DNA of 64,000 bases. Origin: a virus. Below, one piece after another: positions 37,190-57,763 of the stretch. The notes under the pieces are model-generated. The model was not told the origin of the DNA and searched no databases. It was given only the letters and a program-made list of their open reading frames with translations. Both the position numbers and the translations under genes were made by a program. The DNA lies in the IMG/VR virus record IMGVR_UViG_3300047557_001098, positions 39,030 to 103,029 of that record; one strand, 5' to 3'. How positions within the stretch are numbered: position 1 is the first letter of the stretch; each line of letters opens with the position of its first letter.

Positions 37190-40100
37190 TTATGTGTTAG
37201 TTTGAGAAACCGCAACAGCAGATGGTAAAGCAACTACACGTAAGTTAGAAATTTTAGGAACATTTGTTTTATTTGATCCAGACATAACAACTTTAATTTG
37301 GAATATAATAAAGTCTTTATATGTTGCTCCACTCGAAGCACCTACGTAAGAAACTTGCTGTGCAGGAATCCCAGAACCATACTGACCAGGTGCAAATGAT
37401 AGTTCATTGAAATCATTTTTATTACCAGAAACAAATGAAAGATCATTAAGCTGAGTCATTAATTGATATGAATTATCATCAAAACGACTAGGATCAGATG
37501 CGGATAACAGTTTATAGTATACATAAATTCCAGAGCCTGGTGGTTTATATGCATCCATATAAACACGAATATCACCAGCATCAAAACCAGAAGCCAATTG
37601 AATTAACTTACTTATGTAACGAACTTCTCCGTTACCACCACTTGCTTGATCTTCACCATTGTAAAGAACGGTAGCGCCAGTTCCTCCACCACCAGATAAA
37701 GTAACAGTTGGTGATGTCAGATATCCTGTTCCCTGGTTAGTTAAAGTAATTGCAGTTACTTCTCCACCACTTACTGTAGCTACAGCGGAAGCACCTGTAC
37801 CACCACCAACACTCTGATTTGTTATAGTTACGGTTGGTGCTGATGTGTATCCAGAACCACGGTTTGTAATAATGAAACCTGTATTCTGTAAAGGCATTTC
37901 ATTAATTTTATTTTCAACAGTAATCACTCCTATTCTTTGCATGTCAATCATTGGTGATATGTCAGGATTTGAAGTTTGGAATGTTGCTTTTAACTGGAAT
38001 GTTGAATTGCCAGTTTCCTTATTCAAAATTCTTCTTCCATATTGATCATCACACTCATAATTGGTATTTGGAGGAATACGAATAATTTCATGTTGACCTC
38101 CAGTTTCCATTTCCGAAATAAAATCATACTGTATTGAAGTGTTAGGCATTACAGCGTCGGTTGTTTGTAGATACAGCAGATCAAACACAGTATTTGCACT
38201 GTATTGTGATAAGTCAACTTCAAAGAATCCATATCCAAAATTATTTGAATATACACGCTTCTGAATTGTAAACATAATATCATTGTATTGATCAGCAGTC
38301 CATGTCGAACCATTCTGTGATAAGAATAATGATCCTGTATATGGTTGATCTGAAATCAAAACACTGGTTGCCAAGTCAGTATCATTGATACCTGCTATGA
38401 AACATTCATAACCATTACTATTTGACAGTAAAACAAAAGAATGTTCGCCAGGTAATAATAGAATTGGAACATCAAACTTAAATTCAGTATACTTGGTTGG
38501 GTCCGTAATATCAGGTATTGTAGAAAGTTTAACCTGATCTGGAGTTAAAGTTTTTTCTGCATATGGATATACTGTAGTCGCAGATGGATAACCATTGATA
38601 ACAGGTCTTAGCTGACAAGTTACAGGAATAGTTCTATCTTTTGTTTTGAAACAAACACGAACAGAATCAATCACAACACCCTGAGGATACTGATTAATGT
38701 TAATCAAGAATGTTTGTGCAAGTGGGTCATAATATCCAACAACAACATCATTTTGAACCGTTTCTGCTGTCGTAATGATAGTGTCGGTTCTACTTACAGA
38801 CCAACTTTCGTAAGCGGGTTCTCTAACCACTGTTGGTGTAAAGACTGTAACTGAAGTTTCTTGTTTCTGTAAGACAATACCAGATGCATAGAACATACAG
38901 TCGCCGTTTGTACGAGAGTTTTCAATGTTACCAAACTCATCATCAATTAGACGGAATAGTTTTTCTCCCGTTCTAAAGGTGTCAGCCGGACAAATAAACA
39001 CGGCAGCCGTAGCACCTTCTTCAGTTGTTTCAACTAAACCAATAGAATACGTTGAAGTTGAGTCGGGAATTATATTCCAAGTTCCTTGAATGGTTATGGT
39101 ACGAGTTGTACTATCATAAGCGGTAATAGTTGCTTGCTGTTCTTTACCTGTTCCCGCAATGATGTAAAGTGTTTGGCCCACATAATCGTTGGTGCCCCCA
39201 CTACCTTCAGCCTGTGCGCCGCCTGCATGATAGTTTAAAACAACAGTTGATGCTGTAGCAGATAAAACTCTACCTGTTGTATGATACCAATTGCTTGCGT
39301 GATAGGTTTTACCTGTTATATTACCTCGTACCCAAATACCATTTGTACATTGATCCCATGAACCAAAAGATGCAACGGGGCTCATACTAACAATGAAGCC
39401 ATTTTTGGCGGAAGTCAAACAAATGCCACCACTTCCAATAACTGTATCCGATGAATTGAATGATGTGGCCGAACTTGCTTTATAAATCGTTATGGCTTCA
39501 GCGTTGCTGATTGCAGTTTGAAACTGTAAATCACTTTGATCAAATTCGATTCTATTAATTCTACCAAGATATTTGTTTACTTTTACATTATCAAAGAATG
39601 CATTTAGTGATGTAAATGGTTTGAATTTTGTACCAACAACAAGAATATTTTTTTCTCTCATAAAGTGTACAACAGTTAAATCTGTCATACGATCACCTAA
39701 CGACTTTGTTAGTTGTTGAGGAACAATTCTAGATGTAACACCAGTACGTTGAGCACTAATAGTTTGTTCTCTTGTTTCTGACACGGCCACGGTTGAAGTA
39801 ACATCACCAATTACTGCTCTGGCACCGCCGGTGGCGCCGACTCTACCTTGAAGATTGGGGTCATTTGCAACGGCTCTTGTGGATAATGGAGCCAATCCTT
39901 CAAGCACTTGTGAATCCAATGTAACTGATTGCCAATCTGTTTGCCAAGCATTCCATCTAGTGCTTTCAATTGATGACCAAGCATCACGTGCAGCGTCACC
40001 ACCAGAAAGATCAATATTCTGTGCTTCTATACGATCTTCTGATTTCCAAATATCAGAGTTTGGATCAAGTCTAACTGTACCAAAATAATTAACCACATTA

Positions 40101-43100
40101 AATGGATTAATGTTCATCGTTTTTGATGCTTTATTTTGAGAAACAAATGTTGTTTCTGTTGAACCTAGCATCATTAATGGACCATTTAATTCAACATTCT
40201 GATTGTAAATAGCATTATCGCCATTTTGAATAATTTTGGTTGCCGCTATATTATAAGAACCACGACATGTTTGTGTTAGAATATCAATTGCTGCATTAAA
40301 ATCTGGAGCAGTGATTAAAGCTGCCGCACGGTCAACAAAAGAATCTACAAAAACTCCATTTTTGGGTCTTGATCTCCCCACTTGATCACGAATAGTAATG
40401 TCTGATTTATTCAGCGCAGCAATTTCTGCAATATTCAAAGATGTATACAATTCCAGATTTGTGATTCTCTTATCAAGCAAACCAACATCTTTCATGGTAT
40501 AACGTCTATTACTGAAAGTTTGAATGCCTGTTGAAGAAGGATATGTCAAATATGGAAGATATCTTAAAACATAAAGAGTCATTGCCTGTTCTGGCTGCTC
40601 AGGAACAGTTGGTTTTAGAGATGGGACTCCTTGTATAACTTTTAGTTGTCTATTTCTATTCAGAATAACACGATCAATACGTGGTAAGTAATATGCATAA
40701 TCGGTAATAATTTCTTGTCCCGGTTCAGAAATAATATTACCATAAGAAGCATCAACATCTAAAACAAAATTATTTGCTGTTGATGTGTTTACAGCATCTT
40801 TACGAACAGGTCTAAAATCCAAAAAGTCATTTAATCTATATTGATTACCATCTTGGCTAGTGAAGGTTGGAATTAAACCATAATCCAAACCTTGACCACC
40901 AGTTCTATAATCACCTAAACGTGTATAAGAATCAACATTAAAGAAACCGGATCCAGTTGATTTGAATCTTTCGTATCGAACAACTAAAGGACCTTTTGGT
41001 GGATTTTGTCCAGGTTTGAGTATAATTCCACCCCAATCATAGTAAGAGTCTTTTTGTCCTGTTGATAGAATATATCTGTCAGTAACGTTTGCAGATGAAC
41101 CTGTAGCTTTATCAAGAGCATCATAAGTTGCTGTAGAAACTGAAGTTCCATTAAAATCAAAAACAGCATTGATAGCATAAACATCGGCAACATACAAAGA
41201 GGTAACCAAACCAGGTTTCTTTTGTATTAAATTGGTATCATTAATAATTGTTTGTCCATCAAGCGGAGCCACATAAACATTATTATTACCTGAACTAAAA
41301 ATACTATTAGTTCTACTACCAGAACTAGCGGGGTCAACTAAAAGAGTATTTGCTCGAATAAAGACTTTGCTCTTAGAAGTTGGATTTGAAACTGAAACAG
41401 TTGCAAAAACATTTGCAACCATTGAACTTCCAGCACCAGTTATCTGAATTGTTTTTGCAATCGCATCAATTGTTTGAACTTGTGCTGGAACTGTTTGACC
41501 TCTTGCATAGTTTGAACCAGTAGAGGTCGTAACAATAACTTGATAATATTTTTGTTTATCTGTTTGAGATGATACTTGAACTAATGATTCTCCCGAACCT
41601 AATGACAATGGTGCTGATACATCATTTGTAAATGTTACACCAGTAAACAGTTTTTTGTACGCAAAAGAAAAGTCTGCAATCGAATTGTCGGCGACGTTAA
41701 TTTGTCCAACTTTAATTAATAAAGGCTCATTTAACTCATCAGTAATTCTTACTGGTTGAAATCCAGCATCAGTTACACCATCAAAAGTTGGGAAACCAAT
41801 CGATTCATTTTTAGAAATTGGGTGAACGTTAGCATATGATACTAGTGTAGTTCCTGCTGTAGCACTACGCACAACAAGAGATTCCATATCTCTTTTGGAT
41901 GTATCGATAATAAAACAATCAGTAGTTGTAATAGCTGAACTAAAAGAAGGAACGACAGTTGCAGTTCTTGTTGAACCATCATAAGCAGTAATCGTTCTGG
42001 TGCTATTGTCGGAAGTAAGATTTCTTGGTCGACCTTTGACCATTCGAATCTTCATGCCTTTGTAGACATCACTGTTGGCAGAAAATCCTGTTGGAAATAT
42101 AACAGTCGATACTGTGCCGCCAGTTGCATTTGTTCCATATCCACTATTTGAACCAATTGGAGTGGTATTAATATCGGTTACAGTAACTCTATAAACGTAA
42201 TTGTTTGGTTCGTCTGTGTTTGCACTAGCAACGAAAAAGTTCTGTAGTTTAACTTTACAGTTACCAATAACAGTATTATTATAAACAGCCAAGTTACTTC
42301 CTGCACCTATACCGATCATGTTGATAATTTGTCCGGTATTGAGCGCCGAAAGTTCTACGTTAGCAAATTGATTTGTACCAAAGTTATTGAACATTCCATT
42401 TGCATAGATGTAATAACCATAATCGGTTGTAATTCTTTGATTAAAAATTACATCAGTTGTTCTTGGTTTTGGAATTTCTAGAATTGTTGATGACTCTCTT
42501 CCAAACTCATAACCTCGGATATATGCTTTTCCTGGTCCAAGAATTACGTTAGCATATGCTCCTGAACCATTAGCACTATCTTCAAGTGCGATAGAAAAGT
42601 CTTTGATAATATAGTCACCAGATTCATCATATGTACGACGAGCAAGTTCATCAATCAAAGGACCGTAAATAGGAGTTTCACGATTAACGATTGGAACACC
42701 ATCAACAGTTTGATTTAATTCAATGAACTTAGTTAAATCTGTGCTATCTAATGGACGAGTATCTAAATGTAAAGAAACTCTATAACGGTCTGCGCCTGGC
42801 GCTTGAAAATTAGACGAACCTTGAGCAGGGTCTAATAAAGAAGTATCCTCAGTATAATCAATGATTTCTTCTGAAACCACAAAACCAACTCTTGAATTAC
42901 CCTGACGAGAATATTTGTCAATTGCAACGGTCTGTGGTTGTGATTTGACAAAGAGGCCATCATAATAAAATACACCCGCTCCAATTGAAAATGCCATTGT
43001 GTTGCCCAAAGCATTTGCGCTTGCAAGATTGGCATAATAAGATACGTTACCATCAGGCCCAGCATCAGTATAAATGGTTTCATTTGGCTGAAAGTCAGCA

Positions 43101-43492
43101 CCATACAATTGTTTAATGATAAAGGTAATTGGCTCGTTTGCACTTTCGACTGCATTGTAAGATTTTAAAATAAGAGCACGTTTTGTATTCGATGTGTTGT
43201 AAATTACTTTTTCATTGAAAGTATTTGCAGAAATATCAACGCCTTTGAATGTTGAAGCAATATTCAGGTAGTTACAATTTTGAATTGTAATTTGCCCACC
43301 AGTGACTTTTGAGCCAGTTACAAAAATATGATCACCAAATTTTTTAATCTGATCCTGTATTATAGTTTGTAGCTGTGTCAGTTCACGGGCTTGAACCGCA
43401 GTTCCTGGTTTGAATAGGATACGATTGAAATTCTTATCCTCGTCAAAATCATCGTAGTAAGGATTGACATTAAAATTTGTAGTAAGCGCCAT
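37190..43492 (-). CDS. giant DUF4815 virion protein (baseplate/tail fibre)
   Basis: The protein has 2100 residues. The N-terminal [19 protein letters not shown], then [28 protein letters not shown] (split, 22-49), is the DUF4815 signature. The long middle consists of beta modules with an [12 protein letters not shown] region near 1505. Residues about 1890-1965 hold two '[12 protein letters not shown]' type repeats, as in gp6. The C-terminus ends in a beta domain with [15 protein letters not shown]. Such proteins are abundant virion components of aquatic T4-like phages and probably replace T4 peripheral baseplate or fibre parts. Position next to gene 8 supports a baseplate location. Confidence 0.78.
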
Positions 43493-43502
43493 CTATTAAC
43501 CT

Positions 43503-45107
43503 TTAAAATCTAACAATAAGTTTTATATGTTCGGCTTGACCATCCGCACGTGTAATGGCCACCGTATTTTCAGTATACAATACATCTCCACTATAAGGCT
43601 CGAATTCAGGATTACCTACGCCGACAACCAATCGACTTGTACCTGAATTGAAACCATTTAAAGGAACACCAGTTCTAAATGTACCAATTACATTTGTGAG
43701 TTTTACTTCGTTGGAAGATTGAGATATCAAATACCCATACGCCGTTGCGTTATTTGCTGTACCCTGATAAACGTATTCATCCAATGAATAAAAAGGACCT
43801 GCAACGATTGTAATTGCTGTCGTTTGATCAACAACAGAGTTGGCATTAGCTGACGTTACTCTATCCTGTTCACCGTATTTATGGGGATTTACAAGCAGTC
43901 CATATTGTCTAAACGTAGTGTTTGATGATATTTTTCCGTTTTCTGTAGAATCGATTTCACCAATTCTTAGAGAAATCATCACACTATTTGCCGCAAGTTC
44001 TTTGGCTGGATTATACCCATGACCATATTTGGGGTCAAATATTGGTCTGAGAGACACACCCGAATTGGCTCCTGTTCCATATACAAAAACATTAGCCCTA
44101 GAAAATTGAGTTCCAATAGTTGAGATAGTTACTTTTTCTAAGTTGCCAGCAGCATTAATAGTAGGCGTAGCAACAACTCTGGTGCCATCACCTTCAATGT
44201 AAATTCTTGTTGTCAGTGACAATTGATTAGCCGTTGTATATGGACTAGGAATACCTCCACCAGCAGCAATTGTATCAGATGAAATGTAGAATCTGTTGTT
44301 TTGTTTTTCGTAATTTGTGATGTAAGTTTCTGGTGCTATACCAGTACCCGTAACAAACATATTAGCTGAAACGTTATCTAATATTTGCGTTGTTGGATTT
44401 AATATTGTAATTAAATTTGTAGATGCATTGAAAGAAACAACATTAATGTTAGCTTCGACAAAATTGCTGCCTGAATTGCTAACATAAATTGTTGTTAATT
44501 CACCATCAATAACTCCCAAATTACGATTTGTTGTGTAATCTAATAAATCTGCTGATGCTGGAACAGGTATCCACTGATCAGTTAAGAACTTATTAGACGG
44601 TGAAACTTTGTACATGTACTTCCAAAGATAACCATCTGAAGTTTTGATGTTACCATTTGAAGATGTGTAGTCACCTCTAGGTTCTACTGTAGATTTAACA
44701 GCAGAATTTGTTGTACCGTTGCGCCCATTCGACAAACACTTATAAACGTTTCGTTCGGAAGTGTAGACGTAAAATGGTTTAACATTTATTGAAGCATCAG
44801 GTTCAATAAGTTGATCTAAATTCACCTTGTCATCATATTGTTTATAGACGGTATTTGCGGTCCAATTTACTCTCGGTATAACAAGTTCAACGTCAGTTCC
44901 CGTCACTTTTTTTGCTGCCATCATATTATCCCAAATGCTTTTCTCATCATAGACGGTATCAGCAATTGTAGGAGGAGTATTTTCTACAGGATAACTTAAA
45001 TGATTACCAATGTAAACATACCCAATTTCTGGAGCAGGCTCGTAAAAAGATTCTTTAAATTGAACGGCGGTTATATACGCCAAATGTTTAGTTGTAACTG
45101 AAGGCAT
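43503..45107 (-). CDS. 8: baseplate wedge protein gp8
   Basis: The protein has 534 residues (T4 gp8 is 334). The N-terminal MPSVTTKHLAYITAVQFKES, YVYIGNHLSYP (28-38), YDEKSIWDNMMAAKKV and later FYVYTSERNVYKCLSNG, SDGYLWKYMYKVSPS are typical of gp8 of aquatic T4-like phages. Gp8 dimers brace the wedge between gp6 and gp7/gp10. The extra 200 residues lie in the middle and C-terminal parts (about 210-430) as beta insertions. Position between DUF4815 and the gp7-like gene fits a wedge component. Confidence 0.82.
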   Translation of the reverse strand: MPSVTTKHLAYITAVQFKESFYEPAPEIGYVYIGNHLSYPVENTPPTIADTVYDEKSIWDNMMAAKKVTGTDVELVIPRVNWTANTVYKQYDDKVNLDQLIEPDASINVKPFYVYTSERNVYKCLSNGRNGTTNSAVKSTVEPRGDYTSSNGNIKTSDGYLWKYMYKVSPSNKFLTDQWIPVPASADLLDYTTNRNLGVIDGELTTIYVSNSGSNFVEANINVVSFNASTNLITILNPTTQILDNVSANMFVTGTGIAPETYITNYEKQNNRFYISSDTIAAGGGIPSPYTTANQLSLTTRIYIEGDGTRVVATPTINAAGNLEKVTISTIGTQFSRANVFVYGTGANSGVSLRPIFDPKYGHGYNPAKELAANSVMISLRIGEIDSTENGKISSNTTFRQYGLLVNPHKYGEQDRVTSANANSVVDQTTAITIVAGPFYSLDEYVYQGTANNATAYGYLISQSSNEVKLTNVIGTFRTGVPLNGFNSGTSRLVVGVGNPEFEPYSGDVLYTENTVAITRADGQAEHIKLIVRF

Positions 45108-45118
45108 AATTTTTTACT

Positions 45119-47068
45119 TTAAGAATAAATTCCTGTTTCATCATTAGGTAATTTAGTTACTTTCATATAGCTTCCAATTCTTGGTGTCATGAAACCACCG
45201 TTTGTATTTGCTTGCAAATAACAGTTGGCTGATGTAGTAGAATTAGTTATAACTAATGCTTTAATGTGAAAATAGTTTGTTGATCCGTCGCCTGCTACTG
45301 GAGTAAATAACCAGACAGGATCGGATGTAGCACTCAATACAGCAGCAGAGTTTGCAGGTCCTGGATGCTCAATATCTTGTCCTAATTCTGCACGACCACC
45401 AAGATAGAAAGCATTTACTAATTGTGGGTTTGCACCAAAACGAATAGCAAAGCCAACTGTTGCGGTTGTTTGTTTTGAGAAAAATGCATTCCATTCAATT
45501 TCATAAACACTATTAGCACTTAATAATATACCTTTACTGTTACCTAAAAATGGCAAAGCCTCTGTGCTAATTGGAGTTGCAGCGTTTGCAGTCATGTAAC
45601 GATACTGAACTACAGGAACAAATCCTCTGCCTTGTGTGTTATCTACTGTTCCATATAAACTGTTTTCATAAAATTCAATCGTGCCATTTGCGGAAGATGT
45701 GCCAGCAGAATCAATTTCCGAATTACTTAAACCAAGTAAATCAACATACACATTTCCTTTGACACCAACACCACCGATAACATTAACAGTACCAGAAGAG
45801 TTTGAAGTTGATGGTAGGCCTGTTACGCCATGACTTCTTACGTTGAATATTTCTACTGAACTATTTGAAACTGCTAAATTCGCAGTAATTACTCCGCCGT
45901 TGTTTGCGTCTATTGAATTATTAGCACGTAAGAAAGCACTATTTGCATAACTGCCTGATGCATTCTGAGATTCGTATGATGAATTGGCATGAGTAAATCC
46001 TGAGTTAGCATGTATGAATGCGGCATTTGCATGTACAAACGCAGAATTCGCATAACTACCAGTTGCATTTTGACTTTCATATGATGAATTAGCGTGTACA
46101 AATCCACTATTGGCGTGTACAAATGCAGAGTTGGCATAACTACCAGATGCATTTTGAGATTCATACGCTGAATTGGCATGTATAAAAGCACTGTTTGCGT
46201 AAGACGAAGCCGATGTGCTTCCTAAGAAATCGTAATTTGTTCCATCTTCAGTGAAAGTCCATTTGTTGCTAGACTCATTCCAAAGAACATAAACGTTAGC
46301 TTCACTGCCTCTATCAATTTCAATACCAGCGTCAGTTACAGGGGTGCCGGATTGGCTTATGGCTGCATTTAGAGTAAGTATATTGTCAGCAACTAAAACA
46401 GTTTGAGTGTTGACATAAGTTGTCACTCCACTTACTGTTAAGTTACCTGTAATCGTAACATCACCAGTAACTTGACCACCAACATTTGCATCTAACGAAT
46501 TGTTAGCACGAATAAATGCAGCATTGGCTTGTATGAATGCACCATTGGCATATAAAGATGCGGAGTTTGATGTGTAGCTAGGAGTGTTGGCTTGTAAAAA
46601 TGCTGAGTTTGCATATGAACCTGCTGATGTTGCTTTTGCATCAGCAGTATTTGCAGCACCAAATCCAGAGTTAGCATAAGAACCGGCAGAATTTGCTCCA
46701 GTAAAAGCAGAGTTGGTGTAACTTGCCGTAGCATTTTGTGCATTAAAAGAAGAATTTGCATGAATGAACGATGCATTGGCATGAACAAACCCACTGTTTG
46801 CATAACTGGCTGAAGCATTTTGATATGTAAAAGATGAATTCGCATGTACATATGCCGCATTTGCATGAACATATGCAGCGTTTGCATTAGCCAGAGCAGC
46901 ATTTGCAGCATTTACAGAAATATCAATAAGGCTATCTAAAACCCTAATTGACATTTTTTTCGAAACTGGTGATCCCGTACTAACATCAGTCACCAAAATA
47001 AATGTATTTTCTGTGTTTGAACTCGGTGTCGTTAATTCCGTTAGTTCAGAAACTTTAATTCTTGACAT
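45119..47068 (-). CDS. tail fibre protein with heptad repeats and C-terminal beta domain
   Basis: The protein has 649 residues. An N-terminal MSRIKVSELTELTTPSSNTENT is a common fibre-attachment start. Heptad repeats of xxFxxAN type fill about 60-210 and 300-380. Between them lies GDVTITGNLTVSG and an EIDRG..ANVYVLWNE..WTF block shared with the 1780-residue fibre. The C-terminal 200 residues (from about 445) are a globular beta domain with YEIEWNAFFSKQTTATVGF, found as the tip of other aquatic phage fibres. It probably forms a second long fibre. Confidence 0.75.
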   Translation of the reverse strand: MSRIKVSELTELTTPSSNTENTFILVTDVSTGSPVSKKMSIRVLDSLIDISVNAANAALANANAAYVHANAAYVHANSSFTYQNASASYANSGFVHANASFIHANSSFNAQNATASYTNSAFTGANSAGSYANSGFGAANTADAKATSAGSYANSAFLQANTPSYTSNSASLYANGAFIQANAAFIRANNSLDANVGGQVTGDVTITGNLTVSGVTTYVNTQTVLVADNILTLNAAISQSGTPVTDAGIEIDRGSEANVYVLWNESSNKWTFTEDGTNYDFLGSTSASSYANSAFIHANSAYESQNASGSYANSAFVHANSGFVHANSSYESQNATGSYANSAFVHANAAFIHANSGFTHANSSYESQNASGSYANSAFLRANNSIDANNGGVITANLAVSNSSVEIFNVRSHGVTGLPSTSNSSGTVNVIGGVGVKGNVYVDLLGLSNSEIDSAGTSSANGTIEFYENSLYGTVDNTQGRGFVPVVQYRYMTANAATPISTEALPFLGNSKGILLSANSVYEIEWNAFFSKQTTATVGFAIRFGANPQLVNAFYLGGRAELGQDIEHPGPANSAAVLSATSDPVWLFTPVAGDGSTNYFHIKALVITNSTTSANCYLQANTNGGFMTPRIGSYMKVTKLPNDETGIYS

Positions 47069-47079
47069 TTTTAATCCTA

Positions 47080-50000
47080 TTATCCTAATGGCTGAATAGT
47101 TTCAGTCGTTAAAATATCTCCTGTTTCGGTTGTAATCTCATCAAATCCTTCGGTAATTAATCCAGAAGTAGTTTGAACAATTGTTGCTGGCGCAAGATTA
47201 GTCGTATTACGGAACATACCTGTATTAGCTATAAATGTTGGCGGTATGATGTAAGACGTATTTGTCTGCATCGTTGGCTGCCAATAGTAACTGCCATTAC
47301 TTGTAATATTAAATCTGCGTATTACTCCATTACCTATCTCCGACGCTACAACTGTCAATACAACATTCATGTCATTGTTTGTTGTGGCATCAAATACAGC
47401 ATTGTTTTCATAATATCTCAAGTTAGCAGCATTTGCAGTAATTGTATTTCCATACATAGAGCCATTTGCATATACAGTTACATTTTTAACTGTGCCATTT
47501 GGATATACAAAAATACGTGCATTTGCAGCTTGAATCATACCATTTGCTGGTCCCAAATATCTTCCAGCAATGTCAGGATTCGTCGCAAAGTTAATCCAAC
47601 TATTTACTGCTCTTGGGTTTGGTACATTTGCTGCCGTTAAAACAAATACCGCATTTACATAAGACTGAGAGACTAATGGTTGATTGTTCTGATAATGTAC
47701 CAGTCTTGAAATTACAGGACCAGATGAATAAGAACCATTAGCATATATTGTTACATTCTCGACTCTATTTTTGTCGTTCACAAAGACACGTGCATTTGCT
47801 TGACTTGTATTGGCTCCACCAAATACAATCCAACTATTAACTGCAACAGCATCAGCGTTTGCTGAAATCGAGAATACATTTAGGTGAGGTCTAAAGGCTA
47901 TACTATCAACACCAATTCCATAATCACCCCACACTTCAAACGTTGCTTGTGCGCTCGTATTTGTTTCATAAAAACCACAATTAATAACTGCAATTGTCTG
48001 TGAATTTGCGACACCAGCAACAGTGATTACAGCATTCGTAATGGCATTACTGTTTGCAGTAAACGAAATATTCGCACTATTTCCAACGTTTGCCGACGTT
48101 GTAATTACAAGATTTGCCAAGTTTGTTGTGTTGGCATTGTAACCTAATGTAAATCTTGCGCCAGTATTTCCAGTAATAATTACTCCAGCGGGCGTCACAT
48201 ACTGCATAAACACATTAGGTGTTTGTCGAATACCATTGGCCGCATGATGAAGAACTGGACCCATCGTAACGGTAAATGCTGCATTGGTATATGAGTAAGT
48301 GGCAATGTTAAATCCATTTGAACCATTAGCAGATGAAGCATTAAAATATTTCAAATTCATGTAGACATTTGATATTGATGCCGCACCATTCACATAAATG
48401 CCATTTGAAGATACTACAACGTTTACGATGTAGTTCTTATCATTTACATATACACGTGCATTTGCTACGTTTAGAGTTGCTGCTCCCAGATTGTCTGGTG
48501 TTCCAGTGAACACAATCCAACTATTAACTGCAACCGCACCAGCATTGAAAGACACACTTTCAACACCTGGATATAAAGAAACATTCGCAATGTTTGAATA
48601 CAATCCAATTCTATTTATCACCGTTCTGATGATTCTTCCTGGGATTGGATCCGTAGAAGGTGTGGCTTCAATGTAAACATTTGCCTCAGTGTTTGCTCCG
48701 CCACCCACAATTTTCAGATAACCATTCGAGTAATTGTTACCACCAAAATCAGGAAGTAAAGGTAAAACTTGAGTTATTGAATTTGGTATTGAGTTAGAAG
48801 CAACCGATGCTGATAATCCAGAAACATTTCGATATAAACCCACATCATTGATTGTAATACTTCTAATCGAACCATTACTTGGAAAAACTTCAATTGAAGC
48901 ATTTGCACTTCGAATTGGATTTCCTCCAGAGAATACTACAAATCCATTTGTGTGAGCCACACCATTATATGTTCTAATAGTTCCTGTAGGATTACCTACG
49001 TTTGCTGCCACGGAACTGATTGATTTTGGTTGTGTGTTTACAATTGCACGTAAAGGTCCATTTGTTGTTGGGATGTGATATGTCAACAGAGAGAACACTG
49101 CGTTCGTATAAGATGAACCTGCAATTGAAGCAGTATTTTCAAAATATGTTAAGTCTGTATAAACGTTTGCAATTGTTGGTTTGGATTGATATAAACCATT
49201 TGCATACATCGTAACATTTACAACATGTCCTGTCGTATTTACAAAGATACGTGCGTTTGCTGCGTTACTACTTACGCCCGAGAACGTAATCCAACTGTTG
49301 ACGGCAATAGCACCAGCATTAGCTTCGATGCCAGAAATTCTTGCAGTATTATCGTAAAGACCAGGATCAACAATTGTCAATCTACGAATAGAACCATTTG
49401 CTGGCCAGACTTCAACTCTCACATCCGCTGGACGATTTGTTAATCTTGATGTGTTAATTGTAAACACAGCATTCGTAAATGAATATGCTCCAATTGGGAA
49501 ACCATTTGAACCGTTTGAAGATGTTGAATTGAAATACTTTAGACCAGTATATACGTTGGCATTTGCACCTATTGTTGGCGCTTCAAAATATGTGCCATTG
49601 GCAATCATAGTTACATTTACGATATAGTTCTTATCGTTGACGTATACACGTGCATTTGCCACAGCAATGTTTGATGTCGTATAACGTGGATCATCAATTG
49701 TTGTATAGAAATTAATCCAGCTATTAACGCCGACCGCATCTGTGTTTACGGAAACCGAATCTACAATATAATCATTGAATAAAACTATACCATTCGAATG
49801 ACCTTGACCTTCATTCTTTGTGTAATCGATCTGATAAAGCACGTTTGGTGTTGTAATTGTAAAGACAGCATTTGTATATGTGCCAAATGCAATTGTGTTG
49901 CCATTTGAGCCATTAGATGATGCTGCATCAAAATATCTTAATTGTGTATAAACGTTCGACAGTGACGGTCCAATTTCATATGCACCATTTGCAATCACAG

Positions 50001-53000
50001 TAACATTTTCAATATATCCCTCAGTATTAACATATACACGTGCGTTTGCAACATTACTACCAGAACCACCAAAGGTAATCCAACTATTAACAGCAACAGC
50101 ATCACTATTAGCCGTGACGGCTATAACGCCGGAGTCAGGAACAACTCTTGGTGGATCATTGGCGTCTGTGTAAACACCATTGGCATAAATGACAACACTA
50201 TCAACGAAACCAGCACTATTAACCGAAGCAAATGCATTTGCCGAATTACTATTTGCACCCGCAAATCTTAGGTAACCATTTACACTAACACCAGCAACAT
50301 TAGCAGCAAGTCGAAGAACACCAACTTCACTTCTTACGTTTGCTTGATAGATCACTAGGTTTTGATTTGTATTTGGGAAAATAAGAGATGCATTCCCATC
50401 ATACAAACCACTATCAATTACATTGATAGTTCTAATTCCACCATTAGAACGTAGTCTGGTTGTAGACAATGTGAATATTGCGTTTACTTGATTATTAGAT
50501 GTTGTCGTCATCACATCATTATTTTCATAATATCTCAAGTTTGCTGATGTAATTGCAATATTCGAACCTAATCCTATATTAACTGGCAAACCAGAATATA
50601 ATCCTCTATCATAAACTTGTACTCTTATAACATGTCCTGTTGTATTAACAAAGACACGTGCATTCAATGAATTTACAGTCGAGTCGTAAGTGCCATCTAA
50701 AACAATCCAACTATTAACAGCAATCGCTGAAGCGTTGTTTGAAATGGCATTGATTTGAACTTTGTCTGGGAAAACTTCGATTTGTGCGTTTGCCGCTCTG
50801 AAAGAATCTCCACCCAATATAATTAATGTACCATTGCTATATCCTTGACCAGGATTTACAACTGTAAATGTATTAGAGTAGTAAACGTAATGTGGGTCAA
50901 AAGAAGGTATGATTCTTGGTTTGTTTGAATACAAACCACCTTCAGTTAATGTAACTCTCTTTAATGAACCTGTCTTTGCTACAACTAAAGAAAACTCGGC
51001 ATTTGTGTAAGACGAACCTGCTATTGTTGCTGTATTTTCATAATAGGTCAGACTTGTATAAACGTTTCCAATTGTTGGAACATTTGACAGAGTTGAATAA
51101 TGTCCTGTGTTTGCAACAACAACATTTATAATTGCTCCGGTAGAATTAACATATACACGTGCATTTGCAACATAACCAATCGTATTTCCACTGAAGGTTA
51201 TCCAACTATTGACCGCTTTTGCTCCAGCGTTTGCTGTAACAGTTAAAACTCCTGTTTCACCTGCTAACCAAGTTTCCGCATTTGCGATTGCTCTAATTCC
51301 TTCATCAGCATCTAGGAATTCTAAAATACCGTTTGAATATCCTGAACCAGCATTTTCAATGGTCAATGATGTTAGTCTACCACCACCTCCACTGAACACA
51401 ATGAATCCATTAGACATACCATTTCCAGTAGGAGTATTGTATGGTCCTGTCCAAGAAATATTATCAACGTTTCCACTGGTAATTAATCTTGTGTTACTGA
51501 TAATGGCATTGATTGTTCTCTGTTCACCGTTGACTGCAATCTGTGAGCCGACTTGTAATATGCCAGAAGATACAGCAATGTTAAACTTAGTATTCACACC
51601 AGTTACAGCAATACTTCCGTTGCCCGTGTTGACTCTTCCTGATATTGTTAAGAATTGATCATCTTGTCTGTGATCCATTCTTGTAACAACAATATCATCT
51701 CTTTCTACAACAGCAGACTTTGTATAATCTGAGTAACGTGCAAAACCTACTGGATGTAGAAGTTCTTTTAAAATCTTTTTATATTTGTAGAATTCAACTC
51801 TTGAAGAAAGTAGATAAGAATAATCTACGTAGTAATCACTACCTTGAATCTTTCTTTCGATGGATGATACGATAGAATCTGAAGATGTCCAACGACCAGT
51901 ACCTGTTGTGAACGATTGTTCAATTTCGGCTCCTGCTAAACCACCAGTACCCGTTGTACTCACGATGTTTGCTGTAGGTACAAACTGATATCCTGCGCCA
52001 GGATCAATAAGTTTAATACTTAAAATAGCACCAGCGGTTCCAAATCCAGCACCAGAAAGAGTTTCACCATCAGAAGCAATTGAGTAAACTTCAATGTTTG
52101 CACCCGACCCTGCACTGTTGCTTGTTACATTTAATGATGGAAAATTACCCGGCATGTATCCATAACCACCTCTAGGGTAACGATTGTAAATGCCTAGTTT
52201 TTTCTTTGTGTGTAGATAGGTAAATCCTGGAGGTTCAACTGAAAATATCTGATCACTGGTAATAGTATCAACTATTCTTGACTCACCATTGATATCAACA
52301 ATATCACCCTTTTTTAGTTGTGAAAGAAATCTTGTTCTTACTTCACCACTAGCTGGTAAGTAATCTTCTTGAACTTGTGTTGAACCAACTGATGTGACTT
52401 TTACGTTGCCATCAATTCTTGTGTTGGCAACATCTACCCTTGTAATTCCTCCAGTTATGCTAACATTGCCAACAACCGCCGCTGCACCATAAGCAAATTT
52501 TGCTTGAGGATATAATTCTAAGTTAGGAATTGGATCAAATACAATTTCATCACCAACAGCATATCCCGAACCACCATCGTTAATTTTAAATTTCGCAATT
52601 GAACCAAAAGTTTTTGCTGTTCTGTCGGTTGAATAATATCCACCTTCAACATTAATTTCTGGTGTTGCCGTCAATGGTGCCGATGTCAAAAGAACTTTGA
52701 CGTTTGTAATCGGACCCATTGGTATAGCTTCGGTCAATAAAGCATCAATAATTCTTGCATCAAGTGATGCGTTTGCGTTTGCAGCAAAGCCATAAGTCGC
52801 ATTGCTAATTATAGTGTTTGCTGCAAATGACGTACCATTAAAACTCTTAATAACGTCTGTAGAAATATACCAAACGTTTGCGGCATTTTTACCAGATAAG
52901 TCGATACCATCAACAGCACCTTCTAGATAAAAACTAGAGCCATTACCCGTAATGTATAAAGGAGCAGCATTTGTAAATGTAGCACCACCATCACCAATAA

Positions 53001-54021
53001 GAATACTTTCAATAAGGCCTTCGTAAACTGTTTCAACCTCACCGATGGCATTTCTAAGTGGATCACCACTTACAAGTGTTACTCTATCTCCAACTTTATA
53101 GTCTTGTCCAGCAGAAACTACGTTTAATTTTCTAACCACAGAAAAAGTGGTAACTCTTGTTTCAATCAAAACATTGTTTGAATTGAATAGAGGTATAGAA
53201 ACAACTTCACCATTAAAGAATCTTCTTTGTAACGATTTAGCATTAATTAATAGTTCAATTGGCAAACCTAAATTGAACGTATCCGAAATAGACTTTAAAT
53301 TCGAATCTTCAATAATAGCACTAGCGCCAGAACTTAAACCAGTGACTTTTCTGTTTACAAATAGTTTATAATCAAAATTCTCATAAAAAACTTTTACATT
53401 TGAACCGTTAGATGGAGCGTTGAAAAAAATTAATTTTAGATTTTCTTTTTGAATGAAATAGTCTACGCCATGATTTAAAATAACATCATTAACATACACA
53501 GAAATCTCATCTGGATTTACTTGTTGAGTAAGATCAAATGTTTTTTGTGTACCATCTGCGTCATAGTAAGAATAGACTGATGTATTAATATTAAGCTTAT
53601 TATCTACCGTCCACTTACTTGCAGAAGGTTTAATAACATTATTTTTTGGTAAAATAACGTCTACATCTTCACCAAAAAGTAAATGAAAAATAAGTTTGAA
53701 TGAATTCTCGGAGCCTTTTGACTTATATAAATTTACCAGTTGTTTGAATAACAGTTCTTTATCACACTGAACTTCGTATGGTATAAGTGCGGCAAACGTG
53801 CTATAAAAGCCCGCTTCAAACTCATCCAAAGACTCATCAACATCTTTTGCCGTTTTTAATTTTTTTGCAAAGGTAACCAGATCATTCTTTTCGACACCTT
53901 GTTTCTCTTCCAAAAATTCATAATAAGCTTTTAAAAACTTAATGAATTGGGGAAACTCTTCCCTAACGAATTCGGGAACCTGTTGCTCTACAAGAATGGA
54001 TGTTTTTAAATCAGTTGTCAT
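47080..54021 (-). CDS. 7: gp7-like giant baseplate wedge protein with nine-fold repeat expansion
   Basis: The protein has 2313 residues (T4 gp7 is 1032). The N-terminal 115 residues are helical and conserved: VPEFVREEFPQFIKFLKAYYEFLE, DVDESLDEFEAGFY, LIPYEVQCDKELLFKQLVNLYKSKGS. This region resembles the tail/baseplate proteins that sit next to gene 6 in aquatic T4-like phages. Residues from about 850 on carry nine degenerate copies of a beta module with an AVNSWI.F.G motif, ANARVYVN and a YxNAVF strand. The gp7 identity rests on position before gene 6 and size. It could instead be a gp7/gp10 replacement. Confidence 0.65.
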   Translation of the reverse strand: MTTDLKTSILVEQQVPEFVREEFPQFIKFLKAYYEFLEEKQGVEKNDLVTFAKKLKTAKDVDESLDEFEAGFYSTFAALIPYEVQCDKELLFKQLVNLYKSKGSENSFKLIFHLLFGEDVDVILPKNNVIKPSASKWTVDNKLNINTSVYSYYDADGTQKTFDLTQQVNPDEISVYVNDVILNHGVDYFIQKENLKLIFFNAPSNGSNVKVFYENFDYKLFVNRKVTGLSSGASAIIEDSNLKSISDTFNLGLPIELLINAKSLQRRFFNGEVVSIPLFNSNNVLIETRVTTFSVVRKLNVVSAGQDYKVGDRVTLVSGDPLRNAIGEVETVYEGLIESILIGDGGATFTNAAPLYITGNGSSFYLEGAVDGIDLSGKNAANVWYISTDVIKSFNGTSFAANTIISNATYGFAANANASLDARIIDALLTEAIPMGPITNVKVLLTSAPLTATPEINVEGGYYSTDRTAKTFGSIAKFKINDGGSGYAVGDEIVFDPIPNLELYPQAKFAYGAAAVVGNVSITGGITRVDVANTRIDGNVKVTSVGSTQVQEDYLPASGEVRTRFLSQLKKGDIVDINGESRIVDTITSDQIFSVEPPGFTYLHTKKKLGIYNRYPRGGYGYMPGNFPSLNVTSNSAGSGANIEVYSIASDGETLSGAGFGTAGAILSIKLIDPGAGYQFVPTANIVSTTGTGGLAGAEIEQSFTTGTGRWTSSDSIVSSIERKIQGSDYYVDYSYLLSSRVEFYKYKKILKELLHPVGFARYSDYTKSAVVERDDIVVTRMDHRQDDQFLTISGRVNTGNGSIAVTGVNTKFNIAVSSGILQVGSQIAVNGEQRTINAIISNTRLITSGNVDNISWTGPYNTPTGNGMSNGFIVFSGGGGRLTSLTIENAGSGYSNGILEFLDADEGIRAIANAETWLAGETGVLTVTANAGAKAVNSWITFSGNTIGYVANARVYVNSTGAIINVVVANTGHYSTLSNVPTIGNVYTSLTYYENTATIAGSSYTNAEFSLVVAKTGSLKRVTLTEGGLYSNKPRIIPSFDPHYVYYSNTFTVVNPGQGYSNGTLIILGGDSFRAANAQIEVFPDKVQINAISNNASAIAVNSWIVLDGTYDSTVNSLNARVFVNTTGHVIRVQVYDRGLYSGLPVNIGLGSNIAITSANLRYYENNDVMTTTSNNQVNAIFTLSTTRLRSNGGIRTINVIDSGLYDGNASLIFPNTNQNLVIYQANVRSEVGVLRLAANVAGVSVNGYLRFAGANSNSANAFASVNSAGFVDSVVIYANGVYTDANDPPRVVPDSGVIAVTANSDAVAVNSWITFGGSGSNVANARVYVNTEGYIENVTVIANGAYEIGPSLSNVYTQLRYFDAASSNGSNGNTIAFGTYTNAVFTITTPNVLYQIDYTKNEGQGHSNGIVLFNDYIVDSVSVNTDAVGVNSWINFYTTIDDPRYTTSNIAVANARVYVNDKNYIVNVTMIANGTYFEAPTIGANANVYTGLKYFNSTSSNGSNGFPIGAYSFTNAVFTINTSRLTNRPADVRVEVWPANGSIRRLTIVDPGLYDNTARISGIEANAGAIAVNSWITFSGVSSNAANARIFVNTTGHVVNVTMYANGLYQSKPTIANVYTDLTYFENTASIAGSSYTNAVFSLLTYHIPTTNGPLRAIVNTQPKSISSVAANVGNPTGTIRTYNGVAHTNGFVVFSGGNPIRSANASIEVFPSNGSIRSITINDVGLYRNVSGLSASVASNSIPNSITQVLPLLPDFGGNNYSNGYLKIVGGGANTEANVYIEATPSTDPIPGRIIRTVINRIGLYSNIANVSLYPGVESVSFNAGAVAVNSWIVFTGTPDNLGAATLNVANARVYVNDKNYIVNVVVSSNGIYVNGAASISNVYMNLKYFNASSANGSNGFNIATYSYTNAAFTVTMGPVLHHAANGIRQTPNVFMQYVTPAGVIITGNTGARFTLGYNANTTNLANLVITTSANVGNSANISFTANSNAITNAVITVAGVANSQTIAVINCGFYETNTSAQATFEVWGDYGIGVDSIAFRPHLNVFSISANADAVAVNSWIVFGGANTSQANARVFVNDKNRVENVTIYANGSYSSGPVISRLVHYQNNQPLVSQSYVNAVFVLTAANVPNPRAVNSWINFATNPDIAGRYLGPANGMIQAANARIFVYPNGTVKNVTVYANGSMYGNTITANAANLRYYENNAVFDATTNNDMNVVLTVVASEIGNGVIRRFNITSNGSYYWQPTMQTNTSYIIPPTFIANTGMFRNTTNLAPATIVQTTSGLITEGFDEITTETGDILTTETIQPLG
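47480..51250 (-). repeat. nine degenerate repeats in the gp7-like gene
   Basis: Nine modules of roughly 100-190 residues share the AVNSWI / ANARVYVN / NAVF signature. One copy has VSVNGYLRFAG in place of AVNSWITFGG. Divergence at DNA level is moderate, and unit lengths differ. Confidence 0.78.
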
Positions 54022-56075
54022 TCTGCTTCTAATGTTGTGCTAATTGAACTTGGATCAAATTCATCAATCGTCATGATGACATTTTTTGCTGTATCTACAA
54101 TACCTTTATTTAATTCAATCGAAAGACGAATTAAATCATCATCAGAGATGACTCTTTTAATTAAAATATTCGATATATTAATGACACCGGCATCATAGTC
54201 AATCGTACCTGCGTTTTCATCAACAATTTGTCTTTGTGATCTAGAATCGTAGTAAACTGTGCGAATAGTTCCAACTCTACCATCAATCACCACAGCACCC
54301 TCTCCACCAAAACCACCACCCCCACTAATTGTTACCGTGGCTCTTGTGTAATCAATTCCCCTATTTGTGATATCAATTGCTGCAATACTTCCATTAACAA
54401 TTCTTGCCACAGCAGTTGCACCTTCTCCATCACCATTAATAGTCACTGTTGGCGCAGTTGTATACTGTTGGCCAGGGTTAATAACTTCAATTGCAGTGAT
54501 TCCAGAGAATGATTGAGGTACTTCATCAAACTGAACCTCTCTTTCAACACCAGAAGAATCATCAACAGCAAAGAATGTTGAAGTCATTTTGTTACCAATT
54601 GTACCTCTTTTCAAAGGAACGTTAAAGCTAATTGTATAAGGAACAGAAGCAGTTAGATCGGGTTCAAATCTTTTTTGAACTCGAACTGTAACTTTAGAAC
54701 CTAAAATTGCAACTCTATCAACGGAATCAATAGCATCCTGTACTCTTGATGCAACAAACTTACCAGAAAATTTATCTAAGTATGTGCTCTTATAATTTAA
54801 AATTGCATTTCTAATTGATGTTTTTAATTGCTCTTCAGTTTGTGTAGTTTTCTTGGCATCATAACTAACTTCATTGGTCAATAGTAAATAAACAAATTCT
54901 GGATCACGAATTATAGTTTGAACAGCAACAACCGCTTTAGGTTTAATAACCTCATCAATAATTCTTTGTTTTTCCGTATCGGTTAAGTAATAATTTTGTT
55001 TTGGTTTTAGTGCAACGTAAACTGTACCAAATGTTGGAGGTGTCTCATCTTCTCCACCCCACACAGAAACAGAGTCTACCGATGGATATGTTTTCTGAAT
55101 ATATGTTTCATAATCTTTAAATGTTACCAAACGATTTTGCGTTGTGAATTGCAAAGGAGCAGTAAATTTAATACTGTCAACAGATTCTCTTTCCGAACCA
55201 CCAGTCGCTTCAGACACAGGATCAATTATGAAATCTGTTTGAGAATTGCCTAATGAATCAACCAATGAATCGGTAGCAACAAAATTGTTCGCTTTATTTG
55301 CCAACGAACCATTCGTGATCAAGTATGAAATTGTAACTACTGAACCATCAGCAATAGATTTTCCAATAGCATCATTTCCAAAATAGATATCATATGTCTG
55401 TGCTTTACCTTCTTGTAAATAAAAGACAGGAGAATACACTTCTGTCTCAGAAGCATCCGTTGCCAAAGAAAACACTTCTACAGAAGTATTACCTTGAGAT
55501 GGTTGGACAGTAACAGAAATCGTCGAAGTATCAATTCCAGAATCTGGAATTTTGAATATTTGTTTTGGGTTAGTCGCCTGATTGTGAACATACGTATACG
55601 TGACCAACTGGCCTTCGTAAATTGGCAGATCAATAAAACTAAAATCAGTATTAGCTTTTGTTATAACTTTTTCAGCCAAAGTCACAAAACTATAACTCAC
55701 TCCATCAATTTCATTGGAAATAAATTTGAACCCTTTAGGTATTGTCAGTGTTGCTGCTGTGCTTGTACTTGTGTTTACTGTAAAGTTAATTTTTGCGCTT
55801 GGCGCTTTACGTGAGTAAGGCACGTACCCTAAAGTTTTGGCATGTGAAACAACCGAATCACGTAACAGAGCGGTATCCATGAATGCTTCATTGGCAATCA
55901 TGTTCAAGTAATATGCTTGATAATGAGTATTGTAAGCAAGAATATCTAAAAGAATATTCAGGCCAGAACCTTCAAAATCATAGTCGGTAAACTCCGACTG
56001 TTGATTAAGAAACGTCTTTAAATTTTCCTTGATAGTATCAAAATCAAGGTCAGTTACCGTTAAACGATCTGCCAT
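54018..56075 (-). CDS. 6: baseplate wedge protein gp6
   Basis: The protein has 685 residues (T4 gp6 is 660). The start is diagnostic: LTVTDLDFDTIKENLKTFLNQQSEFTDYDFEGSGLNILLDILAYNTHYQAYYLNM (read as shorter blocks over residues 5-59), then NEAFMDTALLRDSVVSHAKTLGYVP. Later blocks are SVSVWGGEDETPPTFGTVYVALKP (near 337) and a C-terminal insertion of 'YTTAPTVTI.GDGEGATA' and 'GGGGFGGEGA' modules (about 540-600). Gp6 dimers form the inner baseplate ring. The gene overlaps the gp7-like gene as ATGA. Confidence 0.94.
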   Translation of the reverse strand: MADRLTVTDLDFDTIKENLKTFLNQQSEFTDYDFEGSGLNILLDILAYNTHYQAYYLNMIANEAFMDTALLRDSVVSHAKTLGYVPYSRKAPSAKINFTVNTSTSTAATLTIPKGFKFISNEIDGVSYSFVTLAEKVITKANTDFSFIDLPIYEGQLVTYTYVHNQATNPKQIFKIPDSGIDTSTISVTVQPSQGNTSVEVFSLATDASETEVYSPVFYLQEGKAQTYDIYFGNDAIGKSIADGSVVTISYLITNGSLANKANNFVATDSLVDSLGNSQTDFIIDPVSEATGGSERESVDSIKFTAPLQFTTQNRLVTFKDYETYIQKTYPSVDSVSVWGGEDETPPTFGTVYVALKPKQNYYLTDTEKQRIIDEVIKPKAVVAVQTIIRDPEFVYLLLTNEVSYDAKKTTQTEEQLKTSIRNAILNYKSTYLDKFSGKFVASRVQDAIDSVDRVAILGSKVTVRVQKRFEPDLTASVPYTISFNVPLKRGTIGNKMTSTFFAVDDSSGVEREVQFDEVPQSFSGITAIEVINPGQQYTTAPTVTINGDGEGATAVARIVNGSIAAIDITNRGIDYTRATVTISGGGGFGGEGAVVIDGRVGTIRTVYYDSRSQRQIVDENAGTIDYDAGVINISNILIKRVISDDDLIRLSIELNKGIVDTAKNVIMTIDEFDPSSISTTLEAE

Positions 56076-56812: not shown

Positions 56813-57763
56813 TTATTCGGCAGGTTCTACCCAACCTGCTGGGTCTGATGTATATGTTGGAGTCGCAGATGCACCATCTCCAACCGATAACCAATTCCCT
56901 GCATCATCCGTATGATAAACTTTTATTGTGCCTGCGGGAGGAGCAGAAGTAAAAGTTATATAATTACCACTTATTGTGTACATTGAAGGTGTTACAACCA
57001 AATTACTTCCAGCAAAATAAACTGCAACATTATACTCTGTTGTTCCCGTTTTATAGCTAGGTGTTCTGGACATTGGTCCAAAAGTTGTTAGTATTCCATC
57101 TGCCGTAAAAGTATCTAAAGCAAACTGATATTCAATTATCGTTCTTGATGGACTGCTTGGATTTTCTTCAGCATATATGTTATTCATCAAAGTGTTTAAC
57201 CGTGTAAAATACCTAGTAGGTATTAAGTGTACCTTTTGAGTAAACTCAGTTGTAACTCCCTGTGCAAGAAAAGTGAAAGTTACAGTTTTTTCTGCTGAGT
57301 CATCAGGATAAAATTTTACAATATTATTCCACCCTGTTGTTGAACTGTGTGAAGGTGCTTTTGCCGCAAGTAGTGCTGAATAACTATTGTACGTAGTCAC
57401 TGGAAAATCGCCAGTTGGTTTTGCTTCTGATTCATAAAAACTAGAGGCGTTTTCATCATAGTTGTTCGTGTTTATTACCTGATAGATATCTCTTGTAGCT
57501 AAATCATCTCCATATTTTCCAGACAAAGTATAAGTTGTTATATAAAACTGCAACAAACCCACAGATGTAAGAACACAACTTGTGTTTGACATTACAGCAC
57601 TAGTTATGACACCCTCTGTTGATAATCCTTTATCAACCTTAGCATTTACAAACGAAACATTAACAGGTTGTCCCCCATCAACCAAAGTTTTGGCATGTGA
57701 AAACGTCACAGTTTCTCCAGCAGGTATTACTCTAAATTGTGTACCATATGTTGATAAAGCCAT
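56813..57763 (-). CDS. virion protein of the hub region, function unknown
   Basis: The protein has 316 residues and is predicted to be beta with Thr/Ser-rich strands: MALSTYGTQFRVIPAGETVTFS near the start, a HDDLATRD-like loop around 85, an LNTLMNNIYAEENPS helix near 188, and a C-terminal fibre module (AVYFAGSNLVV, SGNYITFTSAPPAGTIKVYH) that recurs in other fibre proteins here. It is located between PAAR and gp5 genes, where T4 has none. It might be a hub-associated or tape-like accessory protein. No family assignment is possible. Confidence 0.58.
   Translation of the reverse strand: MALSTYGTQFRVIPAGETVTFSHAKTLVDGGQPVNVSFVNAKVDKGLSTEGVITSAVMSNTSCVLTSVGLLQFYITTYTLSGKYGDDLATRDIYQVINTNNYDENASSFYESEAKPTGDFPVTTYNSYSALLAAKAPSHSSTTGWNNIVKFYPDDSAEKTVTFTFLAQGVTTEFTQKVHLIPTRYFTRLNTLMNNIYAEENPSSPSRTIIEYQFALDTFTADGILTTFGPMSRTPSYKTGTTEYNVAVYFAGSNLVVTPSMYTISGNYITFTSAPPAGTIKVYHTDDAGNWLSVGDGASATPTYTSDPAGWVEPAE

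Follow-up and report, generated by a model that had tools for sequence, protein, structure and literature searches.

A putative gp7-like baseplate wedge protein with an apparently accreted arm of nine diverged, mobile modules

Results

A long gp7-like gene in a T4-like baseplate locus

We analysed a 64,000-nucleotide stretch of a 103-kb virus record (IMG/VR record IMGVR_UViG_3300047557_001098, positions 39,030 to 103,029; hereafter the window), in which a single open reading frame (ORF) of 2313 amino acids (aa) on the minus strand, at 47080-54021, encodes a protein that resembles the baseplate wedge subunit gp7 of phage T4 and carries a long C-terminal chain of repeat units. A 100% identical copy of the protein is encoded on a 172-kb record (L002). 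On the same strand, gp25-, gp6-, gp5- and gp53-like genes lie upstream, while a fibre gene of HANAAF repeats, a gp8 homologue and a gene for a 2100-aa DUF4815 (VrlC-like) protein lie downstream. The order is gp25-gp6-gp7-gp8, here with the fibre gene between gp7 and gp8, and gp6 overlaps gp7 by 4 nucleotides, as it does in T4.

The protein matched the family PF23786 above its curated cut-off (37.3 bits against 27, in two stretches) and phrog_17744, 'baseplate wedge subunit', with an expectation value (E) of 4.9e-39. Its residues 11-126 aligned with residues 648-761 of T4 gp7 in hhalign (94.8%, P 5.5e-8), phmmer found the gp7 of PDB entry 9f4a (E 0.021), and a profile of the core scored T4 gp7 at 17.2 bits against a null maximum of -3.8. 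To judge from these matches and the gene order, the gene encodes a gp7-like wedge subunit of a T4-like phage, as the initial annotation, made from the letters alone, had proposed when it described a gp7-like wedge protein with a repeat arm. That annotation had also pictured T4 gp7 plus repeats, which does not hold: the alignable part spans ~110 residues (~10-125), and the N-terminal ~640 residues of T4 gp7 have no counterpart by hhalign, in which the match starts at T4 residue 648 and at residue 11 of the window protein, whose own core is ~850 aa. Since this T4 region is unmatched, we file the protein as gp7-like and not as a strict T4 gp7. T4 gp7 and other PF23786 relatives (phiM12, Cr30, BUCT-ZZ01, Mosig, Melnitz) share with it the helical blocks, the place after gp6 and the family profile; however, these proteins measure 607-1032 aa and show by profile no confident copy of the repeat unit described below.

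The ~850-aa core, common to hundreds of relatives, is followed by a C-terminal arm of ~1430 aa, made up of nine units (~900 aa) and several G-x-G-Y modules. At 2.24 times the length of T4 gp7 (1032 aa), the protein is indeed more than twice as long, as first stated; the attribution of this excess to nine repeats went too far, for the nine units account for ~900 of the 2313 aa. The gene and the parts of its product are as follows:

47080..54021, minus strand: gp7-like baseplate wedge protein with C-terminal repeat arm, 2313 aa (predicted from the ORF, PF23786 and phrog_17744)
53581..54012, minus strand: conserved helical core blocks A and B, residues 4-147, part of which matches T4 gp7 648-761 (hhalign; helices in the model)
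51892..53580, minus strand: middle beta region of the core, residues 148-710 (AlphaFold2 model; VIA-align)
51724..51834, minus strand: conserved core block C, residues 730-766 (YYVDYSY...YKYKKILKELLHPVG), conserved in alignments and found in distant phages
47083..51384, minus strand: C-terminal arm, residues ~880-2313, missing from core-only relatives (comparison with relatives)

An AlphaFold2 model of residues 1-1200 predicted helices at the N-terminus and, with confidence, a beta region at 140-710, whereas the arm came out at low confidence. Within the beta region, residues 148-214 resembled a small beta domain of phage adaptors and tailspikes (VIA-align, Z up to 9.7) and residues 476-648 a domain of the T4 sheath protein gp18 (VIA-align, Z 8.4). 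Such likenesses are of small folds shared by many proteins and tell little about function. VIA-align listed no gp7 chain for the core model, an absence that carries no information.

The arm contains nine diverged AVNSW units

Nine motifs of the form [AVSG]V[NS][SG][WY][IL] occur at residues 936, 1101, 1246, 1310, 1431, 1573, 1831, 2060 and 2138, which places them between about 51216 and 47610 of the window, and the nine repeats first placed at 47480-51250 are therefore present. A profile built from four of the nine units scored the five held-out units at 35.5-85.5 bits, whereas no shuffled unit out of 500 exceeded 12.5 bits and the core of the protein itself scored -0.8; the same profile approach also detected units in other proteins (see below). 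Self-comparison was informative in part: self-BLAST of the whole protein gave the full-length match alone, and piecewise comparison showed the repeats. Eight units are strong, the exception being the degenerate one at residue 1246. The AVNSW units are 60-118 aa long, with pairwise aa identities of 33-65% (median 46%) and motifs spaced 64-258 residues apart, and Tandem Repeats Finder found no tandem array in the gp7-like gene, all four of its rows falling in the neighbouring fibre gene. The early impression that this is not a recent tandem array is thereby borne out. The units are the following:

50962..51252, minus strand: AVNSW unit 1, residues 924-1020 (hidden Markov model, HMM)
50419..50757, minus strand: AVNSW unit 2, residues 1089-1201 (HMM)
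50143..50322, minus strand: AVNSW unit 3, degenerate or partial, residues 1234-1293 (HMM, 25.0 bits)
49819..50130, minus strand: AVNSW unit 4, residues 1298-1401 (HMM)
49414..49767, minus strand: AVNSW unit 5, residues 1419-1536 (HMM; modelled together with unit 6)
49042..49341, minus strand: AVNSW unit 6, residues 1561-1660 (HMM)
48226..48567, minus strand: AVNSW unit 7, residues 1819-1932 (C-terminal context, TMGP, as in relatives)
47614..47880, minus strand: AVNSW unit 8, residues 2048-2136 (HMM)
47308..47643, minus strand: AVNSW unit 9, residues 2127-2238 (HMM)

The unit consensus is roughly V.SITANAGA.GVNS[WF]I.F.GG...ANARIYVNT.GYIVNV.V.ANG.Y...P......TNAVFTIT, with a loop of highly variable length between the second and third conserved segments, and this framework is conserved across 73 distinct units. 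By eye, unit 7 corresponds in position to units of the relatives L003, L004 and L005. The arm also holds modules of the GxG[YH]SNG type, making it a mixed chain and not nine identical beads; given these other modules, the figure of nine counts one module type and not all modules.

AlphaFold2 modelled units 5 and 6 together as all-beta with modest confidence (predicted local distance difference test, pLDDT, 67.7; predicted template-modelling score, pTM, 0.54). The model is too uncertain to choose between separate beads and one continuous fold. Against predicted viral structures, Foldseek gave one match at E<=0.001, M4SQ89_3, and its remaining rows, chiefly structural proteins of phages and often of cyanophages, had low TM-scores; neither was used. 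Searches of Pfam and PHROGs with the unit gave scattered weak matches (best 0.004 and 0.025, one member each), and PDB sequences gave none at E<=10. A match to Reovirus_L2_6th (E 0.0045) was dropped because its 17.7 bits lie below the cut-off of 27. By these sequence comparisons, no Pfam, PHROGs or PDB family seems to match the AVNSW unit. Furthermore, tblastn of one unit against 50,697 phage records found nothing at E<=0.01, a single query being weaker than a profile, and a scan of 84,980 prokaryote genomes yielded 29 pattern matches, of which 0 were confirmed.

The arm appears to have grown by accretion and varies among relatives

We then compared the protein with its relatives. An IMG/VR scan with the core returned 529, of which the best 80 were kept; together with loci of other scans, and after exclusion of identical sequences, of starts outside the locus and of core scores <300 bits, 97 distinct proteins entered a tree built by a quick method, with the Shimodaira-Hasegawa-like approximate likelihood ratio test (SH-aLRT) as its sole support measure. 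Fifty-nine complete proteins are core-only, 792-886 aa long and with zero units. All 28 arm-bearing proteins fall within one group of 34 rows (SH-aLRT 100), the other six rows being contigs that end before or inside the arm; 23 of the 28 are complete (1343-2313 aa), the window protein being the longest in the tree. One core-only row (L042) was placed beside this group with weak support. Within the group, proteins carry 0, 1, 2, 3, 4, 5, 6 or 9 units above 25 bits, so that unit number, far from being constant among homologues, ranges from 0 to 9 within one clade. Two relatives with cores 81.6% identical, L004 (6 units) and L005 (2 units), differ in four units as clean unit-length gaps. Together with the core-only relatives, these gaps indicate that the arm was added after the core and that units are still gained and lost. 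On these alignments, the arm was built by accretion of diverged, predicted all-beta modules onto the core.

We also estimated the ratio of nonsynonymous to synonymous divergence (dN/dS), which was 0.029-0.505 for the arm (15 arm-bearing pairs) and 0.033-0.356 for the core (14 pairs), and higher in the arm in 12 of the 14 pairs with both values defined; dS lies near or above 1 in several pairs, and few differences underlie the highest arm ratios. By these values, purifying selection maintains the arm, whose evolution is mildly faster than that of the core.

The AVNSW unit is found singly in several virion proteins

The initial annotation had treated the repeats as an expansion of gp7, but the unit is not private to that protein. 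Scanning for loci with the unit profile yielded 37, which showed single units outside gp7 arms as well: inside the gp7 core, at either of two gp8 sites, in the VrlC-like protein and in a small 'MSLWGN' protein. The neighbouring baseplate genes of the window are:

54018..56075, minus strand: gp6 homologue, with a 4-nucleotide overlap with the gp7-like start and its own GxGY module (phrog_219; T4 order)
43503..45107, minus strand: gp8 homologue, in which the two AVNSW sites of relatives are unoccupied (phrog_438/PF09215)
37190..43492, minus strand: DUF4815 / VrlC-like protein, 2100 aa, with one AVNSW unit in relatives (domain match; relatives' loci)

In the gp7 core, L011 carries a unit at about residue 404, where L005, 83% identical, is unoccupied, and L125 and L135 carry one at about residue 470. 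In gp8, site A is filled in L004, L005 and L111 and unoccupied in the window and in L108, which has site B filled. The 598-622 aa neighbour in relatives is gp8 and not a fibre. The VrlC-like proteins of L004 and L005 each carry one unit; a clean contrast between filled and unoccupied sites was not obtained for this insertion, where the window protein aligned poorly. The gp7 unit at residue 1048 of L005 has as its best partner, besides gp7 orthologues, the unit in its own gp8 (78.7% identical), which suggests exchange between genes of one genome.

The small 'MSLWGN...HAGWV...GGRAGRV...ETLVAMGSMTGD' protein (L149-L228) has one insertion point that is unoccupied, filled with an AVNSW unit or filled with an AVNSW-GxGY intermediate. 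With a unit it is 182-220 aa long, the insert lying exactly between HAGWV.R..GT and GGR.GRV..ETLVAMGSM. A motif rule parsed 68 of 80 loci, leaving out 12: 16 lack an insert (113-118 aa), 20 hold a unit scoring >35 bits, 22 score 15-35 bits, and 10, L227 among them, are long and without a unit. The window phage's own copy (L193, on the contig of L002) has a divergent insert, to which the unit profile gives 18.6 bits and the GxGY profile 9.8. Altogether, these comparisons show the AVNSW unit to be a mobile domain, inserted singly in several particle proteins and duplicated inside gp7.

GxGY beta modules themselves occur once each in the gp6 homologue (54252-54533, minus strand) and the VrlC-like protein (37640-37930, minus strand) of the window, the two being 46% identical. 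Such modules of marine T4-like phages resemble the AVNSW unit in strand pattern and in their GxY...P ending, and MSLWGN intermediates score with both profiles. However, direct profile comparison of AVNSW with the GxGY modules of gp6 and the VrlC-like protein lent kinship no support, at 1.4% in hhalign. A 97% match between a profile of the arm's G-modules and alignment A2 was rejected as circular, because the seeds overlap AVNSW units.

A gp7 probably split by insertions in cyanophages

We next examined named phages. In cyanophages the gene after gp6 is giant (S-CAM1, 3032 aa; ACG-2014d, 6817 aa; S-H34, 1942 aa; S-CRM01, 1454 aa), the S-CRM01 protein being annotated 'baseplate wedge initiator, gp7-like', whereas the gp7-locus protein measures 874 aa in Pelagibacter phage Mosig and 896 aa in Methylophilales phage Melnitz. 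With cyanophage proteins of 1454-6817 aa, great length at the gp7 locus is not peculiar to the window phage. Core blocks B and C occur in order in 6/6 of these phages, at 14.8-80.9 and 24.3-42.2 bits, while 204 shuffled or reversed sequences scored at most -3.8 and -0.6, and 66 other long ORFs of ten named loci gave no block B match and a best C score of -0.2. Block A is weak in S-H34 and S-CRM01 (-1.3 and -1.2 bits). The blocks lie at residues 3-46, 177-241 and 2018-2083 in S-CAM1 and at 6-45, 672-753 and 3547-3644 in ACG-2014d, whose protein was covered up to residue 4723. The ACG-2014d gene (KJ019120.1, 45303-65756, about 6817 aa) is annotated just as 'structural protein'.

The cyanophage giants thus resemble the window protein in their locus after gp6 (and before gp8 where shown), in the order of core blocks B and C and in their GxGY modules. 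However, their expansion lies mostly between core blocks and includes YHYH domains in S-CAM1 and S-H34, with no AVNSW units found by profile, whereas that of the window protein follows the core. One wedge protein therefore seems to have grown at places that differ between lineages, by YHYH and GxGY modules in cyanophages and by AVNSW units here. According to passages of PMC7029224, pelagimyophages and cyanomyophages lack T4 Gp7 and have VrlC in its place; contrary to this, our profiles suggest that gp7 is present, split by large insertions, in Mosig and cyanophages. We put forward, tentatively and at somewhat less than even weight, a joint reading in which marine T4-like phages would keep gp7 as their main hypervariable baseplate scaffold. 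Mobile beta modules would be loaded onto its helical core at three points, one between A and B, one between B and C and one behind C, so that the wedge subunit doubles as a multi-domain receptor-contact arm. In this reading AVNSW would form a new family of mobile domains confined to phages and passed between gp7, gp8, the VrlC-like protein and a small virion protein. If gp7 is indeed present in split form, numerous unannotated giant 'structural proteins' of marine phages would turn out to be gp7, and a host-contact role of the wedge would become open to testing.

Discussion

A candidate display arm at the baseplate rim

For the window protein itself, we rate as evenly balanced the proposal that an accreted display arm sits at the baseplate rim on a gp7-like core, pointing outward, touching the host surface and retuned by its units. 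The helical core would hold the protein in the wedge next to gp6, and the arm would leave the rim as a string of small beta domains, with six arms per virion if the stoichiometry is as in T4. There it would serve as an outward display element in reversible contact with the cell surface or surface glycans, and this contact would be retuned through gain, loss and divergence of units, in both number and loops. Of the initial interpretation, the repeat arm on a gp7-like wedge protein is supported, while an extra fibre or sheath-like skirt, and adhesion by the arm, are conjectural. According to passages of PMC3004832, T4 gp7 occurs as a monomer, with six copies in all, and its domains contact gp9 and gp10, which makes a peripheral place for the arm plausible. 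A host-contact role has an analogue: PMC6949934 describes tandem BACON repeats on tail-associated proteins of crAss-like phages, proposed to bind the host, and single-domain duplication with horizontal transfer. Both systems place diverged tandem domains on a tail-associated protein, but the domain and the carrier differ, the carrier here being a wedge protein, and Pfam scans of the whole protein and of 20 unit sequences gave no BACON match at E<=1.

Ig-like domains are promiscuous small beta domains added to unrelated phage virion proteins; the AVNSW unit, all-beta in its model, has no Ig-like Pfam match. Tail proteins with tandem or inserted beta domains are already known, and what is new is a unit outside the searched libraries on an unusual carrier. 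Among the titles and abstracts that literature searches listed, none described the AVNSW module or giant gp7 proteins. If the display proposal is correct, arm growth may be a quick way to alter what the tail tip touches.

Several results weigh against a display role. The two-unit model has no confident fold match in the PDB (Foldseek, none at E<=0.001; VIA-align, best Z 3.4), and almost all of the arm at 842-1200 has pLDDT <50 in the 1-1200 model, which does not fix the arm's geometry. Pfam scans detected no receptor- or sugar-binding family in the arm, and the dN/dS pairs gave no sign of positive selection there, only mildly faster change than in the core. Finally, units in gp8, the VrlC-like protein and the MSLWGN protein would also fit a structural role.

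The chief alternative, which we consider possible but on balance unlikely, is an architectural arm whose units pack on gp8, on a VrlC-like second layer and on fibres, giving a larger or double-layered baseplate without binding the host. The presence of units in gp8, the VrlC-like protein and gp7 itself suits this well, as does a constraint on the arm that nearly matches the core's; passages of PMC3004832 have T4 gp7 and gp8 jointly forming a platform for gp6, and passages of PMC7029224 and PMC6630229 discuss VrlC as a mark of double-layered baseplates. However, variation from 0 to 9 units among relatives is hard to reconcile with a fixed contact lattice, and the unit also occurs in a small protein whose gene lies at another place in the genome (G002, position 103174). 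More doubtful still is the reading of the unit as a selfish or neutral module, carried by recombination from one large virion gene to another and merely tolerated where loops and termini are permissive. Several unrelated insertion sites in several proteins, unoccupied in relatives, the varying copy number and the similarity that suggests gp7-gp8 exchange would all be expected of such a module, yet dN/dS lies well below 1 for the arm in all measured pairs, and the framework of the unit is preserved over all the distinct units compared. That the long ORF is a misassembly or chimera, conceivable for a window taken from a virus contig, is very improbable given the identical ORF on the 172-kb record and intact orthologues of 1343-1872 aa with low dN/dS on other contigs.

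The natural series of relatives with zero to six and nine units, together with single insertions and their unoccupied sites, would show a phage building an arm on an inner structural protein. A specialist would find more of interest in the mobile unit, whose sites are filled in some relatives and unoccupied in others, and in the cyanophages' split gp7 than in the nine-fold count.

Other observations in the window

The gene between gp7 and gp8 (45119-47068, minus strand) encodes a fibre-like protein of HANAAF/YANSAF repeats, and T4 has none at this place. At the DNA level it holds a true tandem repeat, with periods of 84 and 21 (Tandem Repeats Finder). A 1780-aa ORF at 24299-29641 (minus strand) has a weak PHROGs match to phrog_19280 (E 1.3e-6), the family to which the fibre protein also has its weak match. 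Within the baseplate operon, a 316-aa ORF at 56813-57763 (minus strand), without a PHROGs match, is flanked by the gp5-like gene and a gene for a PAAR-like protein.

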